A stretch of DNA of 37,842 bases from Mariprofundaceae bacterium (GCA_015488115.1 WFOK01000033.1:1-37842), one strand, 5' to 3'; shown: positions 268 to 8,215, counted from the first letter of the stretch. Notes: a model not told the origin generated them from the letters alone. Numbers and translations: made by a program.

Positions 268-397
268 TCGTTGTGGACGATCGAACCGACAAGATGGCTG
301 TGAAGTGAGGCATTGGTTTCTGATCTTTCAGCTCCGTTTCAGACAAGGGATGCATGCTTCGAAGCGTTCATTTTGACGTTTTGGAAAGGAGAAACTG

Positions 398-964
398 ATG
401 AAAGGCTTCTGGAAGCTTGCATGTGTTGCCATGATGCTCACCTCGTTCGTTGCCACAGCCCATGCCACGGACCCTTATGTGGGGATTGGTTTCGGGGCTT
501 TTAATCTTGGCAACGGCATTCAGAAAAAAGCTGTTGCCGGCGGTTATGTCCAGATTGGAGATGACTTTTCCGAATATCTTGGCGCCGAGGTTCGCATTGG
601 GCGCACGGGTAAGACCGGAGAGGAATTCACCCTGCAGCCGCGTATGGGCATCGATTACTTTGTCGCGGCCTACTTGAAACCGCACTACCAGTTCAGTGAT
701 CGTCTGATGGGCTATGCCTTGCTGGGAGCGGCAACGCTGCGTTCCAGCTACAGCATTGCCGGCAGTCCGGTCCAAAAGAAGACCAGAAGCGGCTACGCCT
801 ATGGCTTGGGCCTGCAATATCGCATCGCCGATGCCTACAGCCTTGGCATCGAGTATTCACACATGCTGAGCAAGCCCAAGACCAATCCGCTGGCCATCCG
901 GACAAACTTTCAGGGATTGGAAACCAGTTCGCTGAGCGCGAGTTTCAAATACTTCTTTTTCTGA
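398..964 (+). CDS. Outer-membrane beta-barrel protein, porin-like family
   Basis: A 188-residue protein with a clear signal peptide (residues 1-23, ending AHA before TDPYVGIGFG). The mature part is made of short amphipathic strands rich in Gly, Tyr and alternating hydrophobics (LGAEVRIGR, YFVAAYLKPHYQF, YALLGAATL, YGLGLQYRI, YSLGIEYSHM). It ends in SFKYFFF, the C-terminal aromatic signal for BAM-dependent insertion. The pattern fits the eight-stranded OmpA/OmpX-like 'outer membrane beta-barrel' families, and no periplasmic OmpA-like domain follows. The start ATG at 398 has a good ribosome-binding site (GGAAAGGAG, 383-391). It is a single-gene unit between two terminators. Its substrate or role is unknown; structural or small-solute functions are both possible. 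Confidence 0.82.
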   Translation: MKGFWKLACVAMMLTSFVATAHATDPYVGIGFGAFNLGNGIQKKAVAGGYVQIGDDFSEYLGAEVRIGRTGKTGEEFTLQPRMGIDYFVAAYLKPHYQFSDRLMGYALLGAATLRSSYSIAGSPVQKKTRSGYAYGLGLQYRIADAYSLGIEYSHMLSKPKTNPLAIRTNFQGLETSSLSASFKYFFF

Positions 965-1372: not shown

Positions 1373-3220
1373 ATGAAGTCAGAACAATGTGTTCAATGTC
1401 CGGCAGGGCTCTCGGAGACACTACTTGGCGGAGGTATGGCGCCTGTTCGCGAAGCGCTGGTCGAAATTGTGCGGACGGGGGCCATTACGCCCCATTTCCA
1501 GCCCATCTTTAATCTTCGCGACCGGAGCATATTTGCCTTCGAGGCCCTTGCCCGCGGACCGCAAGACAGCCTGCTGCATCGGCCTGATGATCTGTTTGCC
1601 GCAGCGCGATATTGGAATCAGCTAGCCGAAATCGATTTTCTTTGCCGATACAAGGCCATTGAAAGCTTTGTGCGTCTAGGTCTGCCAGGATGCCTGTCGA
1701 TCAATATCGATCCACATGCGCTTATGGATGCGGCCTTCCGCAAGGGACGCACATTGACCATGCTCAAGGACTTCGGGCTGCCTGAAGGGAGAGTCATTCT
1801 TGAGTTGACCGAACACACACGAACGGAGCAATATCGTGAGCTTCGTGAAGCCGTCCATCACTACCGTAGCGAAGGGTTCATCATTGCGATCGACGACCTC
1901 GGGGCAGGCTATTCCAACCTTCGGCTGCTTGCCGAGCTTGAGCCGGATTTTCTCAAGCTGGACAAGTTTTTCATCTCCCAGCTTCAGCGGAATGCCAAGG
2001 CACAGGATTTCATCCGCCTGATCGTCGATCTCGCCAAGCGTGTAGACTGTCAAATCATCGCGGAGGGCATTGAGACCCAGGAAGAATTGCTCTTTCTGTC
2101 GCGTCTTGGCATCGAGTATGCGCAAGGATACCTTCTTGGCCGTCCGTCTCCCGAGCCCGCGACATCCACGCCATGTTCTCTACGGCAATTGCCTGAACCA
2201 GATGAGGCGGACTCAATCCATCGACAAGTGCCCCTGTCGTCGTCAAATGGAGAGGAGGAGACCGTTGCGGCCTTGCGCCTTCATCCCGTCCCGCCGTGTT
2301 CTCCCGAAACCTCCTTGTTGGAGGTTCTCGAGCGATTCAGGAGTGAGCCGAGGCTGCGTGCGATTCCTGTGGTCAGGAAGCAGGAGGTTCTTGGCTTGCT
2401 GACCCGTGACCGCATTCTGGAAGAGTTCGCCTCTCAATATGGTCATCAGCTTAATCGCAAACGCAGCGCGGCAGAAAAAATGGAGCGCAATCCACTCGTG
2501 GTTTCAGTGCATGATCCGCTTACCAAGGTCAGTCAATGGGTGACCCAGCGCGAGGCAGATATGCTTTATACTCCGTTCATTGTTTGCAATCGCGATGGAT
2601 ACATGGGCATGGTTTCTGTTCGCAACCTGCTGAAAAAAATCACCGAGATTCAGATCCTTCATGCCCGTCAGAGCAACCCGTTGACCGGATTGCCGGGAAA
2701 CTTGTGCATTCAGAAGAGAATGCAGATGCTGCTCAAGATGCGTCGCTTTTTTGTTGTCTGTCATCTCGACATCGATCACTTCAAGGCCTTCAACGACACG
2801 TATTGCTATGAAAGAGGCGACCAAATGATCCAGCTGGTTGCAAGGACGCTTTGCGAATGCGCTCGCCAAGACGATTTCATCGGCCATATTGGCGGTGACG
2901 ACTTTGTGTTTATTGCAACAGACGACCAGTGGCTCCAGCGTTTGGAGCATTGTCTGATGCTGTTGGACCAGCGTTTTCCAGCACTTTATGACCCTACAGA
3001 CCGCGAGCGGGGCTTTATTGAAGCCGAGAACCGAAATGGGCAACGGCAGCGTTTCCCGTTGGCATCCATCTCGGTCGCCGCTTTGCCTTGCCCGCCGGGC
3101 AGCTTTGGCTCCCATCTGGAGGTATCGGAGGTTCTGGCAGAGCTGAAGCATCAGGCGAAACGTCAGCCTGGCACATCCTTGATTGTCGAGCGTCGGGGAC
3201 GTCCGGCTGCTCAGGGCTGA
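1373..3220 (+). CDS. EAL-CBS-GGDEF cyclic-di-GMP turnover/signalling protein
   Basis: A 615-residue cytoplasmic protein without membrane segments. The EAL phosphodiesterase domain spans about residues 30-270 and keeps the expected catalytic pattern: FEALARGP (E57), SINIDP, LELTEH, IDDLGAGYS, LKLDK, IAEGIET and QGYLLGRP. A CBS-pair region follows (about 290-430), and then a GGDEF domain (about 445-600) with LDIDHFKAFND and a variant active-site loop, GGDDF instead of GGDEF/GGEEF. The NPLTGLPGN entry to the GGDEF domain is characteristic of this EAL-CBS-GGDEF architecture. The EAL half probably hydrolyses c-di-GMP; whether the cyclase half is active or a regulatory GTP-binding module is uncertain. 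The CBS pair could sense adenine nucleotides. ATG 1436 is a possible alternative start. The gene overlaps the convergent kinase gene by 10 bases. Confidence 0.9.
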   Translation: MKSEQCVQCPAGLSETLLGGGMAPVREALVEIVRTGAITPHFQPIFNLRDRSIFAFEALARGPQDSLLHRPDDLFAAARYWNQLAEIDFLCRYKAIESFVRLGLPGCLSINIDPHALMDAAFRKGRTLTMLKDFGLPEGRVILELTEHTRTEQYRELREAVHHYRSEGFIIAIDDLGAGYSNLRLLAELEPDFLKLDKFFISQLQRNAKAQDFIRLIVDLAKRVDCQIIAEGIETQEELLFLSRLGIEYAQGYLLGRPSPEPATSTPCSLRQLPEPDEADSIHRQVPLSSSNGEEETVAALRLHPVPPCSPETSLLEVLERFRSEPRLRAIPVVRKQEVLGLLTRDRILEEFASQYGHQLNRKRSAAEKMERNPLVVSVHDPLTKVSQWVTQREADMLYTPFIVCNRDGYMGMVSVRNLLKKITEIQILHARQSNPLTGLPGNLCIQKRMQMLLKMRRFFVVCHLDIDHFKAFNDTYCYERGDQMIQLVARTLCECARQDDFIGHIGGDDFVFIATDDQWLQRLEHCLMLLDQRFPALYDPTDRERGFIEAENRNGQRQRFPLASISVAALPCPPGSFGSHLEVSEVLAELKHQAKRQPGTSLIVERRGRPAAQG

Positions 3221-4515
3221 GGAAGTTCGATGCAAACCTTGAGGCCCCCGAGGGACGCAGAGCGACCAAAGTGCAGCCTGCCCTCGTAGGCATCGACAAT
3301 CTCATTGACGATGGCAAGGCCAAGTCCGTGCCCGGGTTTGCTTTCATCAGCCCTGGCCCCGCGCTGGAGGACCCTTGCAGCCATGTCTTCCGTCATGCCT
3401 GGGCCATCATCTTCCACCTCGATCAGCAGAAGGGAACCATTCCGCCGCATGCTGCAACGCACCATGGTCCGTGCCCATTTTGCTGCATTGTCCAGCAGGT
3501 TGCCAAAGATTTCGAGCATGTCTTCCCGGTCCGCCGCTATTTCAAGCGTATCATCCATGGCCAGATGAACGGATATTTTGGGGTGTGCAAGCTCGATCAA
3601 ACGCGTTATGTCACACAGGTCCCGGTAAACATTGGCCCATTTCCCGCCCGGTGCACGTCCTGCCGTGCGTGCACGCGCCAGCTCGTGCTCAATCCTTCGT
3701 TCGATTTCCTGTAAGCGCATTCTGGCTTGGTCCATATCCGTGCCGGGGGGCTGGCGGTCAAGGATTTGTCCAAGCGCGGCAAGCGGGGTTTTCAATGCAT
3801 GCGCAAGATCGCCCAAGGCGTGCCGGGAGCGGTTCAGTCGCTGGCGAACCAGATCCACAAGTCGGTTGATTTCCTCGACAAGCGGCAGAATCTCCCGAGG
3901 AACATTCGTCGTCACCCGGTCGATTTCGCCTTGCTCCAGTTGCCTTAACTGGTTGCGTATCAGCAGTAATGGCTGCAGCCCGTATCGGACAACCCATGCC
4001 TGCAGCACGAGCAATAGCAGGACCGCAATCAGAGCATATACGAGAAGGTGGCGTTGAAATGCTGCGGTATTCTTCTTCAGTACGGAAATATCTTCGGCCA
4101 CGCGCAATTCGATGGGGCTTCCGTGCCAGTCGAAGCTTCTTCTCAGCAACAACAGCCGCTGGCCGGACGGTCCGGGAACTTCCCAGTGGGTCTTGTGCGC
4201 CAATGCGGGAAGCTGCTCATCCCAGAGAGAGCGGGAACGCAAGACATGGGTTCCTGCATGGATTTCAAAGTAATGCCCCGAAAAGGGGCGCCGGTAAATC
4301 ACGGGAATTCGGTCCTCATCCAGCGTCGGCGTCGATGCGGGGTCAGGCCAGTGAAATGCAGCAAGAATCTCCTGCTGGTCATGTTCCAGGCGGGAGAGAA
4401 CATTCTGTTCGCTCAATGTTGCCACCTCGCGGCCAATCATCAGGGTTTGAGCCGCGAAAAAGACCGCCAGGCTGGCCGCCAGGCTCAGCATCAGGCGCAT
4501 GATCAATGAATTCAT
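3211..4515 (-). CDS. Sensor histidine kinase (PhoQ/QseC-like)
   Basis: A 434-residue membrane kinase, last gene of a six-gene minus-strand operon. TM1 is about residues 6-27, the periplasmic sensor about 28-155, and TM2 about 157-176, followed by a HAMP linker. The dimerisation domain has the phospho-acceptor in HALKTPL (H239). The ATPase domain shows the N box (NLLDNAAKWA, 339-348), DDGPGM (369-374) and GHGLGL (395-400). All key residues are present, so it should autophosphorylate and pass phosphate to the response regulator encoded just upstream. The start codon overlaps that gene's stop (ATGA). The HALKTP form of the H box is typical of PhoQ-type kinases. The stimulus is unknown; the cytochrome and PepSY genes in the same operon suggest a redox or envelope signal. 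Confidence 0.93.
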   Translation of the reverse strand: MNSLIMRLMLSLAASLAVFFAAQTLMIGREVATLSEQNVLSRLEHDQQEILAAFHWPDPASTPTLDEDRIPVIYRRPFSGHYFEIHAGTHVLRSRSLWDEQLPALAHKTHWEVPGPSGQRLLLLRRSFDWHGSPIELRVAEDISVLKKNTAAFQRHLLVYALIAVLLLLVLQAWVVRYGLQPLLLIRNQLRQLEQGEIDRVTTNVPREILPLVEEINRLVDLVRQRLNRSRHALGDLAHALKTPLAALGQILDRQPPGTDMDQARMRLQEIERRIEHELARARTAGRAPGGKWANVYRDLCDITRLIELAHPKISVHLAMDDTLEIAADREDMLEIFGNLLDNAAKWARTMVRCSMRRNGSLLLIEVEDDGPGMTEDMAARVLQRGARADESKPGHGLGLAIVNEIVDAYEGRLHFGRSASLGGLKVCIELPQP

Positions 4516-5189
4516 CGATGTGACCGCAAGACCTCAGAGCGCAGGAAATAGCCCTGGCCCCTGCGGGTTCCGATGACATCATGCCCCAGCTTCCTTCGCA
4601 GTCGGCTGATGTACACCTCAATGACATTGCTTTCTTTTTCTTCATTGAAGTCATAGACATGTTCAACCAGATGCGAGGCGGAAAAAACCTTGTCCGGGTG
4701 CAGCATCAGATATCGAAGCAGTCGAAACTCCGTGCCGGTCAAATCGATCTCTTTTCCGCTCCAAGACGCTTTCTGGCTCCCTTCGTCCAGCTTCAGTGCT
4801 CCGATTTCAAGCACAGGCGAGCCAAAGCCTCTCATTCGTCGGCCCAATGCCTGAAGGCGCACGACGAGTTCTTCGAAATGGAACGGTTTGGTCAGGTAAT
4901 CATCGGCTCCGGCGCGAAAGCCCTCGACCTTCTCATGCCAGGCCCCCCGTGCGGTCAGAATCAATACGGGGGTGATGATGCCGGCCCTGCGCCAATGCTG
5001 AAGCACCTTCAGGCCCGGAACTTCAGGCAAGCCGAGATCGAGCACGATCAGGTCATAGGGTTCCGTTTCGCCCATGAACCATGCCTCATCTCCGCTTGAG
5101 GCCTCATCCACGGCATAACCACGCTCGCGCAGCCCCTTACCCAACGATTGTCGCAGCTCAGGGTCGTCTTCCACCAAGAGAAGGCGCAT
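4512..5189 (-). CDS. OmpR/PhoP-family response regulator
   Basis: A 225-residue two-domain regulator. The receiver has the acidic pair in LLVEDDPE, the phospho-acceptor D51 in VLDLGLP, the Thr in LTARG and the Lys in LTKPF. The C-terminal winged-helix DNA-binding domain is recognised by LTGTEFRLLRYLMLHPDKVF and ending VIGTRRGQGYF. ATG 5189 is preferred over TTG 5192, because it overlaps the stop of the upstream PepSY gene by one base (TGATG) and gives the normal family length. It is the partner of the adjacent kinase. Its targets are not visible; control of its own operon is plausible. Confidence 0.94.
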   Translation of the reverse strand: MRLLLVEDDPELRQSLGKGLRERGYAVDEASSGDEAWFMGETEPYDLIVLDLGLPEVPGLKVLQHWRRAGIITPVLILTARGAWHEKVEGFRAGADDYLTKPFHFEELVVRLQALGRRMRGFGSPVLEIGALKLDEGSQKASWSGKEIDLTGTEFRLLRYLMLHPDKVFSASHLVEHVYDFNEEKESNVIEVYISRLRRKLGHDVIGTRRGQGYFLRSEVLRSHR

Positions 5190-5494
5190 CAATGCCGCTC
5201 CTTGCCCATGGGGCGTGCCGTTCTGGCATCAATTTCCAGGTGATGGATTCGGTGGTCTCGACCGATGAACTCGATTTCGTAAACCAGTCGCTTACCTTCC
5301 TCTTCCAGTTCGACATCCAGCAGGGCCCGCTTTTCAATGCCAAGTCGCTTTACAATTTCAGACAGGGACAAGATTTTTCCCTCACTCCGGAGCTCCCTGG
5401 CCCGCTCGGCATCATGTGCTTGTGCATGCAGCGACCAGGCCTGAGATACCAGGCAGACAAGCAGACAAGCCGAGTGTCGTCCTAGTCGTCCCAT
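5189..5494 (-). CDS. Periplasmic PepSY-domain protein
   Basis: A 101-residue protein with a signal peptide (about residues 1-27, MGRLGRHSACLLVCLVSQAW then a SLHAQAHD region). It carries one PepSY domain: LSLSEIVKRL, then VELEEEGKRLVYEIEF and HHLEIDARTARPM. Small PepSY proteins next to PhoP/PhoQ-type systems are common, and PepSY domains often inhibit or modulate envelope proteins. Here it could adjust the sensor kinase or a cytochrome, which is an inference from position. It overlaps the diheme cytochrome gene by 13 bases and the response regulator by one base, so translation is probably coupled. Confidence 0.87.
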   Translation of the reverse strand: MGRLGRHSACLLVCLVSQAWSLHAQAHDAERARELRSEGKILSLSEIVKRLGIEKRALLDVELEEEGKRLVYEIEFIGRDHRIHHLEIDARTARPMGKERH

Positions 5495-6051
5495 TGCCCG
5501 AAGCCGGGAATGCGCACGGTGTCCTCATCATAGATGCCCCTGTCAGCCATGGTATGGCAACTCGCGCAATTGGCAAAGGAGCGAACCTTGGGGTTTTTTT
5601 GCACCATGCGCGGAGGGATCTCGCGATGCTTGTAACGGAAAAATGGCGTTTCGGTGATTCTCAACGGCGTTTCTCCTTCCGACAATGAACGAAGCATGCT
5701 GCGGCTGAAACGGTTGGGCACATGTTCGGCTGCATGGCCACGCAGATAGTTCTCGATTTTTTTGCGCGTGTCCTCATCCAGTTCGGCGTTTTCTCCAAAA
5801 TGATCATCGAGCCGGCGCATCAGCTGCACCCAAGATCGCTCCGGCAACAGGCCGGCGGGGTAGGCGAAATGGCAAGCCGAACATTCATTCCGGTATGTGG
5901 GGTCGCTGGCCGGTTCAACCCCCGCACTTCGATGCCAGAAGCCATGATCATGTTCCCAAGGCTCATCTTCGTCACTCCAGCCGAGGCTTGCAACCGAAAC
6001 CGACAAGGCTGAAAGCAGCACGACTGCACCCAGATATTCTCGTTTGGTCAT
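5482..6051 (-). CDS. Diheme cytochrome c, DHC family
   Basis: A 189-residue exported cytochrome with two CxxCH heme-binding sites: CSACH in the N-terminal part and CASCH near the C-terminus. The N-terminus (MTKREYLGAVVLLSALSVSV) is a signal peptide or anchor. The order of features, the FWHRSAG region and the second heme close to the C-terminus fit the dihaem cytochrome c (DHC) family. The frame is open further upstream, but ATG 6051 is chosen because it overlaps the stop of the SHP gene in an ATGA arrangement and puts the signal peptide at the N-terminus. DHC is known as an electron donor to SHP in purple bacteria, and here it lies between SHP and PepSY genes. It should act in the periplasm. 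Confidence 0.88.
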   Translation of the reverse strand: MTKREYLGAVVLLSALSVSVASLGWSDEDEPWEHDHGFWHRSAGVEPASDPTYRNECSACHFAYPAGLLPERSWVQLMRRLDDHFGENAELDEDTRKKIENYLRGHAAEHVPNRFSRSMLRSLSEGETPLRITETPFFRYKHREIPPRMVQKNPKVRSFANCASCHTMADRGIYDEDTVRIPGFGQWDD

Positions 6052-6470
6052 TTCTTCTTGCCTCCAGGGTTTGATTGACGGATAAACATGAGCAAATCCC
6101 CTTTCTCCTGTGGTGTGCACACCCTTCCCCAGGTCCAGCGGCAATTGCGTCGGAACCATTTCTCAACCTTTTTCGCATCCATCAGGCGAGATGGATTCAC
6201 CGCAGGAGACATCGGTTCAATGTGCTTGCCTGTGCGCAAGTGCTGTCCTGGTCTGGTCAAATCCGTTGTATGGCAGGAAGCGCAAGACACCGGCTTTCCG
6301 AGCTTTGACTGCATGTGCCTGGCTTCCCATAGCTTTTTGCCTCGTATGGGGTTGAAATCTCCTGCTCCCTGGCGCTGGTATTGCTGTAGCAGGCTCTCCA
6401 CAGCTCCGGCCGATGCAGTTGCTGGTAACAATATCATCGCCAGGCACACGCAGGTGTATGCTTTCCTCAT
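6048..6470 (-). CDS. SHP-type monoheme cytochrome c (DUF1924 family)
   Basis: A 140-residue protein with a signal peptide (about residues 1-22) and one heme site, CASCH. The motif FRRNCRWTWGRVC matches the SHP (sphaeroides heme protein) family, where an Asn next to a disulfide-bonded Cys serves as a displaceable sixth heme ligand; here Asn is followed directly by Cys, with a second Cys eight residues later. SHP proteins bind small ligands such as oxygen or nitric oxide in vitro, but their physiological role is unsettled. Starts and stops overlap by four bases with the genes on both sides, giving b561-SHP-DHC. The product should be periplasmic and receive electrons from DHC. Confidence 0.88.
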   Translation of the reverse strand: MRKAYTCVCLAMILLPATASAGAVESLLQQYQRQGAGDFNPIRGKKLWEARHMQSKLGKPVSCASCHTTDLTRPGQHLRTGKHIEPMSPAVNPSRLMDAKKVEKWFRRNCRWTWGRVCTPQEKGDLLMFIRQSNPGGKKK

Positions 6471-7063
6471 GGTTTATCCTCCATGTCCCGCATGGTTTTG
6501 CAGCCGGTGAACATTGCGCTCACGAGATTCACTTTTTGCAACCAGCTTTCCACGAGAACACCGGCAATATGCACGATGACCAAGGCCATCAACGCATCGG
6601 CCAGGCGCTCGTGCAGATCCATCACCCAGATTTCCTGCTCAAAGCTCATATGATCGACCCATCCAGCCCATGGCCCGGCATCCAGTTGCAGCGCAAGCAA
6701 AAGGCTGCCTGTGGCATACATGAACATGAGCGCGCACAGCAGCAGGAAAATCATTACACTTCCCAGTGGCGTGTGTCCGAGATGGCGGTGAGGACTTCCC
6801 TTCAACAGGGATAGGAAATGTGCCTTCAAGGCCGAGTATCGAGGGAAGAAGCTGCCGAATCGCGCATGTTCCGGGCCGACAGCCCCCCAAAACAGACGGA
6901 AAAGCAGCAAGCCTCCGAGCAGGCTTCCCGCCAGTCCGTGCACGCGCAGGTCTGTGCCGTCGGACCAATAGGCCAGCAGAACGGCTATCACGGTCAGCCA
7001 ATGAAAGATGCGCAGCAGCGGATCCCATACCCGGATCACTTGGCGTTTGTGCTGAAGGGCCAT
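6467..7063 (-). CDS. Cytochrome b561-type membrane protein
   Basis: A 198-residue, four-helix prokaryotic cytochrome b561. The first helix begins with the typical VWDPLLRIFHWLTV, giving a heme-ligand His. Further His residues occur in RVHGLAG and MDLHERLADALMALVIVHIA. Hydrophobic segments are about residues 12-30, 37-58, 92-115 and 145-165. Proteins of this type oxidise quinol and hand electrons to periplasmic cytochromes, so it is the likely source of electrons for DHC and SHP encoded downstream. ATG 7063 is the only sensible start; an AGGAG lies about 17 bases upstream, rather far for a ribosome-binding site. Probably the first gene of the operon. Confidence 0.88.
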   Translation of the reverse strand: MALQHKRQVIRVWDPLLRIFHWLTVIAVLLAYWSDGTDLRVHGLAGSLLGGLLLFRLFWGAVGPEHARFGSFFPRYSALKAHFLSLLKGSPHRHLGHTPLGSVMIFLLLCALMFMYATGSLLLALQLDAGPWAGWVDHMSFEQEIWVMDLHERLADALMALVIVHIAGVLVESWLQKVNLVSAMFTGCKTMRDMEDKP

Positions 7064-7321
7064 GTTGCGGAAGTGTAGTGCTCCTGGCTTAAACCTCGCT
7101 GAAAGGATGGCTTCCTTTTCGCCTCGAAAAGTGGCTCCAAGGCGCCCGGGAGAAGACATGAGCCGGCTTCTTTTCTTGTTTTTCCTTCGGCTGTAATGTT
7201 CCGGTACCGAGGCTGATGCGGGCATGAAAACCATGCATGTCAGGATGAAAACAGATGGATGATGCAGTTGGGGCGCGTCTATCTGTGGTCTCGTTGCCAG
7301 GCTTGCATCAGGAGATGGATC
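7064..7321. promoter_or_regulatory. Divergent intergenic region (b561 operon / pfkB-like gene)
   Basis: 258 bases separate the start of the minus-strand cytochrome operon from the plus-strand sugar kinase gene, so promoters for both should be here. I cannot recognise a convincing -35/-10 pair on either strand. AGGAGA at 7310-7315 is the ribosome-binding site for the kinase gene. Confidence 0.4.
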
Positions 7322-8215
7322 ATGGATGTACTGTGCGTCGGGCATGCTTCGTTTGACGTGACGATGTCGGTGCCGCATCACCCGTCGGCCGATGAAAAAA
7401 CGCGGGCCACGGCCATGCGCTTGTCCGGTGGCGGCCCGGCGGCCAATGCCGCCGTTCAGGTGGCTCGCCTGGGCGGCAGGGCGGGCTTTGCGGGTTATCT
7501 GGGGCAAGATGTTTTCGGGTGTGCACATGCCGCGGAGTTCGAGCGCGAAGGCGTGATGCTGGATGCCCTCGTGCGAGGCAGGGCGCCGACGCCCGTTTCA
7601 CAGGTGCTGGCCAAGCCAGATGGTTCGCGCTGTGTCATCAATTACAGCAAGGACACGCCGGCCCTGCCGGGCCATGCGATCCAGCCGGACAGCCTTCATG
7701 CAAGGGTCATGCTGTTCGACGGCCATGAGCCGCATGTCTCCAGGCGGTTGTGTGCCTGGGCGAGAGGGCAGGGCATTCCGACTGTTCTCGATGCAGGCAG
7801 CCTTCATGACGGGACCCAGGCGCTTGCCATGGAGGTCGATTACCTGCTGGGCTCCGAGAAGTTCGCGCGGCAATACACGGGATGTCGTGATGCAGGTCTG
7901 GCATTGCAGGCCCTTGCCTGCCAGAGGGATCATGTGGCCATCACCCTGGGCTCGCGGGGGCTTGTCTGTTATGGCCAGGGACGCTTTCGCTGGATACCCG
8001 CCTTTGCCGTGGATGCCGTGGATTCAACCGGGGCTGGCGATGCGTTTCATGGCGCCTTCGCCTTGGCCGTGGCCGAGGGAAAGGGGTGGATGGATGCGCT
8101 CCGCTTTGCTTCCGCGGCCGGGGCGCTGGCCTGCACTGGCTTGGGGGCGCGCCACGCCCTTCCGCGCCGGACGGAGGTCGACAGACTGCTTGCTCAGTCG
8201 GATGCTGGTGGATGA
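7322..8215 (+). CDS. PfkB-family carbohydrate kinase
   Basis: A 297-residue ribokinase-like kinase. The N-terminal VLCVGHASFDV and the glycine-rich LSGGGPAANAAVQVARLGG form the sugar-binding part. The second PfkB signature DSTGAGDAFHGAFA carries the catalytic base Asp and the anion hole. It should phosphorylate a sugar or nucleoside with ATP in the cytoplasm; the substrate cannot be told from sequence. ATG 7322 is chosen over TTG/ATG codons further upstream because AGGAGA precedes it at good spacing and the conserved beta strand begins at residue 2. Its 3' end overlaps the convergent DUF3422 gene by 22 bases. No transporter or pathway gene lies beside it. Confidence 0.9.
   Translation: MDVLCVGHASFDVTMSVPHHPSADEKTRATAMRLSGGGPAANAAVQVARLGGRAGFAGYLGQDVFGCAHAAEFEREGVMLDALVRGRAPTPVSQVLAKPDGSRCVINYSKDTPALPGHAIQPDSLHARVMLFDGHEPHVSRRLCAWARGQGIPTVLDAGSLHDGTQALAMEVDYLLGSEKFARQYTGCRDAGLALQALACQRDHVAITLGSRGLVCYGQGRFRWIPAFAVDAVDSTGAGDAFHGAFALAVAEGKGWMDALRFASAAGALACTGLGARHALPRRTEVDRLLAQSDAGG

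Follow-up and report, generated by a model that had tools for sequence, protein, structure and literature searches.

SHP (sphaeroides haem protein) is an oxygen-binding c-type haem protein with a history of decades and still no consensus on what it does. In a stretch of 37,842 nucleotides from a Mariprofundaceae bacterium (GCA_015488115.1 WFOK01000033.1:1-37842; hereafter the window), its gene shares an operon with two other cytochrome genes and with the genes of a two-component system, which raises the question of whether the regulatory proteins monitor the cytochrome chain or govern its production. The host genome, a 1.69 Mb assembly of 72 contigs, encodes a single SHP.

Gene content and earlier descriptions of the operon

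The operon lies on the minus strand and begins with a membrane cytochrome b561 (6467..7063; PF01292, E=5e-24), followed by SHP (6048..6470; PF09086/DUF1924, E=5e-38, one CXXCH) and the dihaem cytochrome c DHC (5482..6051; PF09626, E=1e-38, two CXXCH). The regulatory half comprises a small, secreted, DbfQ-like PepSY protein (5189..5494; PF03413, E=6e-6), an OmpR/PmrA-type response regulator (4512..5189; PF00072 and PF00486), and a sensor kinase of the SK1 type (3211..4515; HATPase_c, with RSRSLWD in its periplasmic domain). All five junctions overlap, by ATGA at b561/SHP and SHP/DHC, by 13 bases at DHC/PepSY, by TGATG at PepSY/regulator, and by ATGA at regulator/kinase. An earlier note on this DNA had described six genes running from 7063 to 3211 with five overlapping junctions, and all of these are present, with Pfam families that agree. 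The EAL–CBS–GGDEF gene that lies past the kinase is not conserved beside the operon and was dropped as a candidate partner.

The cytochromes are readily recognized. SHP scores 129.8 bits against PF09086 (cut-off 22.5) and carries the haem site CASCH, and in its alignment with the solved Rhodobacter sphaeroides protein (1dw0, E=5e-21) the Asn ligand and the C-x7-C pair are kept (RNC...C). DHC aligns to the solved DHCs 3u99 (E=5e-43) and 2fw5, with both haem sites present. Together, b561, SHP, and DHC form an already described oxygen/NO-binding cytochrome chain, and ligand binding by the SHP of the window is predicted.

The six-gene layout has been known since 2010, when Meyer, Kyndt, and Cusanovich reported SHP operons that carry any of three sensor kinases and described the arrangement CytB, SHP, DHC, Orf1, RR, SK1 in Magnetococcus, Reinekea, Mariprofundus, and Shewanella oneidensis (PMC2909971). 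In that study, SK1 is recognized by variants of SGVYWQ and RSRSLWD. The window kinase contains SGHYFE and RSRSLWD, with S, G, Y, and SRS invariant across 17 aligned rows, which identifies it as SK1; its cytoplasmic part is closest to PhoQ. The window and the SK1-type operon of 2010 therefore share the six genes, the RSRSLWD motif, and the placement of Orf1 beside the regulator and SK1. The two accounts differ in that Orf1 was not named as a PepSY protein in 2010, and a text search of the paper found no mention of an operator or of an outer-membrane target. From the shared operon position, Orf1 appears to be the PepSY protein, an identification made in the present analysis. What is new here is the predicted regulatory logic, together with a predicted regulon made up of the SHP operon and an outer-membrane barrel gene.

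Distribution of SHP and of the PepSY–regulator–SK1 module

We surveyed 397 genomes from the phylum, of which 64 encode DUF1924, and inspected 71 SHP loci. SK1 is found at 32 of these, 25 times in an operon with PepSY, the regulator, and SK1 on the same strand (the kinase of two lies beyond the contig end or is unmatched) and seven times divergently. A different regulator–kinase pair, without PepSY, occurs at 11/71 loci, and the remaining 28, some of them on short contigs, have no two-component genes nearby. The link between SHP and two-component genes that the earlier note had drawn from a single locus thus recurs among DUF1924 neighbourhoods. Since the same gene set, strand, and order are found at 25/71 SHP loci in five taxonomic families, the layout is not a product of chance.

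The regulatory module has a much wider distribution than SHP. The SK1 sensor domain is present in 195 of the 397 genomes, and when 40 SHP-free SK1 loci were taken, approximately 33 paired PepSY with SK1, nearly all in the arrangement PepSY–regulator–SK1 and most without any cytochrome chain. Judged by gene content, the module is usually found apart from SHP, DHC, or b561. In a tree, the SHP-adjacent SK1 kinases do not form one clade, with at least five forced changes, and a single origin of the SHP–SK1 coupling was rejected on this ground. This pattern, along with the mostly SHP-free occurrence of the module, points to a general sensor that either joined SHP on more than one occasion or was lost and later acquired again. 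Only two of the hits in a single-protein scan were true relatives. The nearest named relative is a zetaproteobacterium MAG, PEWE01000022.1, and the window itself is very probably zetaproteobacterial.

A QseC-like kinase, SK2 in the 2010 study, accompanies a second class of SHP operons, in which the same SHP–DHC–b561 chain is joined to a regulator and a kinase. These differ in their order, SHP–DHC–b561–RR–HK, in having no PepSY gene, and in carrying a site of the CTTAAG-N5-CTTAAG type in several cases.

Predicted operator, promoter, and second target

Relatives of the operon carry TTCAGGTTTATTTCAG upstream of b561, in which a short element is directly repeated every 11 bases. The window has a predicted response-regulator operator, TTCAG-N6-TTAAG (TTCAGCGAGGTTTAAG; 7088..7103, minus strand), that matches this footprint, overlaps the -35 position, and starts 40 nt from the b561 ATG. 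Ten nucleotides past the box is a predicted -10 element, TACACT (TAnnnT; 7072..7077, minus strand), put forward from column conservation. The aligned promoters show the same arrangement, with TAnnnT ten bases on from the box and the ATG mostly 38-40 nt from the box start; across 18 loci, positions +27 (A) and +31 (T) are 100% conserved, and position +26 is T in 67%. Such spacing suggests that the box occupies the -35 position and that the transcript probably starts at or next to the b561 ATG, making it leaderless. In keeping with a box that replaces the -35 element, no standard promoter was detected at the start of the operon in a sigma-70 scan.

The repeat follows the module closely. With up to one mismatch, TTCAG-N6-TTCAG precedes 23 of the 25 SK1 operons, against 1.0 expected in shuffles, in a sample dominated by one family (18/25 loci). 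The window operator was located separately, since the open reading frame at its longest begins at 7528 and this placed the site outside the scan; it raises the count to 24/25. At the same threshold, the site is found at five of the seven divergent SK1 loci (0.15 expected) and at 2/27 SHP operons without two-component genes (0.5 expected). The SHP operons with the other regulator–kinase pair have CTTAAG-N5-CTTAAG instead, in 4/11 cases with up to one mismatch and in 6/11 with up to two, where 0.05 would be expected. The operator type, TTCAG-N6 or CTTAAG-N5, offers a means of distinguishing two classes of SHP operons. A literature search found no paper describing this distinction, which to our knowledge is new.

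Across the whole genome, there are seven perfect TTMAG-N6-TTMAG sites, the window operator among them, and four of these lie ahead of the operon or of barrel genes. Genome-wide, TTCAG-N6-TTCAG exceeds its reversed control even in genomes that are free of SK1, so total counts are unusable and only sites in promoter position are considered. Given the conserved operator on its promoter, the operon is in all probability under the control of the response regulator that it encodes. Combined with the overlapping junctions, this shared promoter supports a single unit, in line with the co-production of all six genes that the earlier note had proposed.

Besides the operon box, the window contains one other perfect promoter-positioned site, a predicted operator (TTCAGCTCCGTTTCAG; 327..342, plus strand) situated 71 nt before a gene for a small outer-membrane beta-barrel protein of 188 aa (398..964, plus strand; PF13505), the predicted co-target of the regulator. 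Of the family's barrel homologues, 30 were compared, and the box lies 63-103 bases upstream in all 16 close orthologues and in none of the 14 distant paralogues. The close orthologue is restricted to genomes bearing SK1, the exception being one 86%-complete assembly in which SK1 was not found. Moreover, the barrel gene adjoins 11 SK1 operon loci, including that of the window, and none of the other SHP loci. The barrel protein has no known redox function, and its gene has an operator in common with the SHP operon. Taken together, the regulator probably drives both, as far as promoter sites and gene neighbourhoods can tell.

Possible signal and probable output of the module

Two known systems resemble the regulatory half of the operon. 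In Vibrio cholerae, the secreted PepSY protein DbfQ is encoded before dbfRS, binds the sensor of DbfS, and shifts this kinase to a phosphatase; DbfQRS is activated by outer-membrane damage, and its authors suggested positive autoregulation (PMC12714742). In DbfQRS as in the window, the gene for a small secreted PepSY protein immediately precedes those for a regulator and a membrane kinase. They differ in that the targets of DbfQRS concern biofilm and metabolism, the paper makes no mention of cytochromes, and there is no physical link to an SHP chain (PMC12714742). The same authors list BqsS as the Pseudomonas aeruginosa orthologue of DbfS (PMC12714742). The operator of BqsR is TTAAG-N6-TTAAG, the downstream half of which overlaps the -35 element in the bqs promoter (PMC4682146), and BqsS binds Fe(II) directly through a periplasmic ExxE motif, E45xxE48 (PMC12666569). 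BqsRS, also called CarRS, has in common with the window the tandem pentamers with a 6-base spacer, the placement of one half at -35, and PepSY genes upstream (PMC4682146, PMC12666569), and the window operator TTCAG-N6-TTAAG is one base from that of BqsR. Unlike BqsS, however, the window kinase has no ExxE motif, and the bqs operon has no reported SHP chain.

The reading that best fits these observations, and that we regard as likely, is a PepSY-gated module that answers envelope or metal stress and acts on the SHP chain and the outer-membrane barrel, with the chain as its output. Sequence comparison supplies the gene order, the families, the operator, and the second target on which this reading builds. 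By homology with DbfQ and DbfS, the PepSY protein of the window should be a brake on SK1: we infer that it would sit on the periplasmic sensor and hold the kinase in its phosphatase state. Envelope stress, in the form of outer-membrane damage or of a metal or cation load, would relieve this brake. The phosphorylated regulator would then bind TTCAG-N6-TTMAG, standing in for the -35 element, and activate the b561–SHP–DHC–PepSY–RR–SK1 operon, providing both positive feedback and more brake, along with the small barrel gene. Quinol electrons might pass from b561 to DHC and on to SHP, which in the periplasm may reduce or oxidise O2, NO, or some other small ligand. With the operon and the barrel both activated by a PepSY-gated switch, the cytochrome chain would be what the sensor controls and not what it reads, and the conserved DNA site before both suggests a stress-response effector and not a self-contained redox sensor.

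More tentatively, and at somewhat less than an even chance, SHP–DHC–b561 could be the electron-transfer arm of an envelope or metal stress response in which a PepSY-gated kinase acts through one operator type on both the chain and a co-evolving small outer-membrane barrel, with SHP serving to protect or repair the envelope and not for respiration or sensing. In A. vinosum on pyrite, few genes are induced as strongly as those for SHP, DHC, b561, and a regulator next to them, and efflux genes rise as well (PMC11267869), which is consistent with metal or envelope stress. Linking Orf1–SK1 to DbfQRS and BqsRS, together with the operator and the second target, makes the question of SHP function testable.

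A specific form of the stress-module reading, whose probability overlaps with it, is that SK1 is a BqsS-like sensor of Fe(II) or cations and that the chain and the barrel guard the envelope against damage by metal, alone or together with oxygen. We consider this possible and the less probable version of the two. It would suit an iron-oxidising lineage, the nearest named relative being a zetaproteobacterium, and it draws on the near-identical operator of BqsRS with its direct Fe(II) sensing and on the pyrite response of A. vinosum. A His-Asp pair (H45-D46) is also conserved in the SK1 of SHP operons at BqsS-numbered positions 45-46, in an alignment made via a Pseudomonas-like protein and not BqsS itself. 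Against this, E45xxE48 is missing: no ExxE motif is present in residues 28-150 of the window kinase, where positions 45-49 read HDQQE, and DbfQRS did not respond to Fe (PMC12714742). A sequence profile of the SK1 sensor matched no solved structure, and an AlphaFold model of the sensor (mean pLDDT 84, from three sequences) had no PDB match below E=0.001, with weak PAS/PDC-like matches that include the Zn sensor CzcS.

The earlier note had instead cast the operon as a self-contained redox sensor, in which the b561–DHC–SHP chain is monitored for its redox or ligand state by the kinase or the PepSY protein. Several observations favour this idea: chain and module share one operon in several families and are sometimes divergent, two kinase types have been recruited beside SHP, the chain is nearby and periplasmic in SHP-containing genomes, and functional coupling was likewise inferred by Meyer et al. 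(PMC2909971). However, neither the periplasmic sensor predicted for the window kinase nor the PepSY protein in its mature form contains a cysteine or a haem motif such as CXXCH, the Cys of PepSY being confined to its signal peptide, which leaves direct redox sensing without visible chemistry. In addition, the module is retained in many genomes without an SHP chain, the operator is common to the barrel gene, and the related DbfS and BqsS answer outer-membrane damage and Fe(II), respectively (PMC12714742, PMC12666569). Redox sensing by the kinase or PepSY is therefore improbable; co-transcription, as proposed earlier, and self-regulation through the promoter operator are supported, while the redox-sensing part of that proposal is not. 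Least probable, and nearly ruled out, is a passive neighbourhood of two unrelated units whose two-component genes regulate something else, to which the SHP loci lacking such genes nearby lend some credit, but against which stand the five overlapping junctions, their recurrence in several families, and a shared-promoter operator whose occurrence follows that of the SK1 module.

The b561 promoter and operator types

The promoter spacing at window positions 7061-7103 predicts that the b561 transcript would be leaderless, and aligned promoters place the response-regulator box 38-40 nt from the ATG in most relatives. SHP operons with another, QseC-like response regulator-kinase pair instead carry a site of the CTTAAG-N5-CTTAAG type, located upstream of SHP at the surveyed loci L055, L056, L060, and L069; operator type thus follows kinase type.

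We also identified the predicted operator at two additional genes for small outer-membrane beta-barrel proteins in the window's own genome (G000), besides the one in the window. One, at G000:C19:1-190, is cut by the contig end and is nearly identical to the window copy, while the other lies at G000:C30:5116-5713.

Genes beside and within the operons

Beyond the kinase gene lies a convergent EAL–CBS–GGDEF gene (window 1373-3220), overlapping it tail-to-tail by 10 bases; this neighbor is not conserved across the compared operon loci.

In SHP operons lacking two-component genes, b561 and SHP are often separated by an additional, fourth gene, as seen at loci L025 (7277-7879), L042 (7301-7885), L048 (1457-2083, minus strand), and L054 (7259-7879). 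Its product is a membrane protein of roughly 200 amino acids with conserved histidines and only sub-threshold similarity to b561. The consulted passages from Meyer 2010 (PMC2909971), which described SHP operons, make no mention of this gene.

Split and reduced arrangements

Two family members, L096 and L129, have DHC–PepSY–RR–SK1 without SHP at the locus, and in both genomes SHP-DHC resides on a separate contig. In one of these genomes, the box is also present at the distant b561-SHP-DHC unit (L020). At six other SHP-free SK1 loci (L091, L092, L093, L102, L108, and L127), a lone b561-like gene adjoins PepSY or the module. These lone genes may be remnants or may reflect a separate b561–PepSY partnership.
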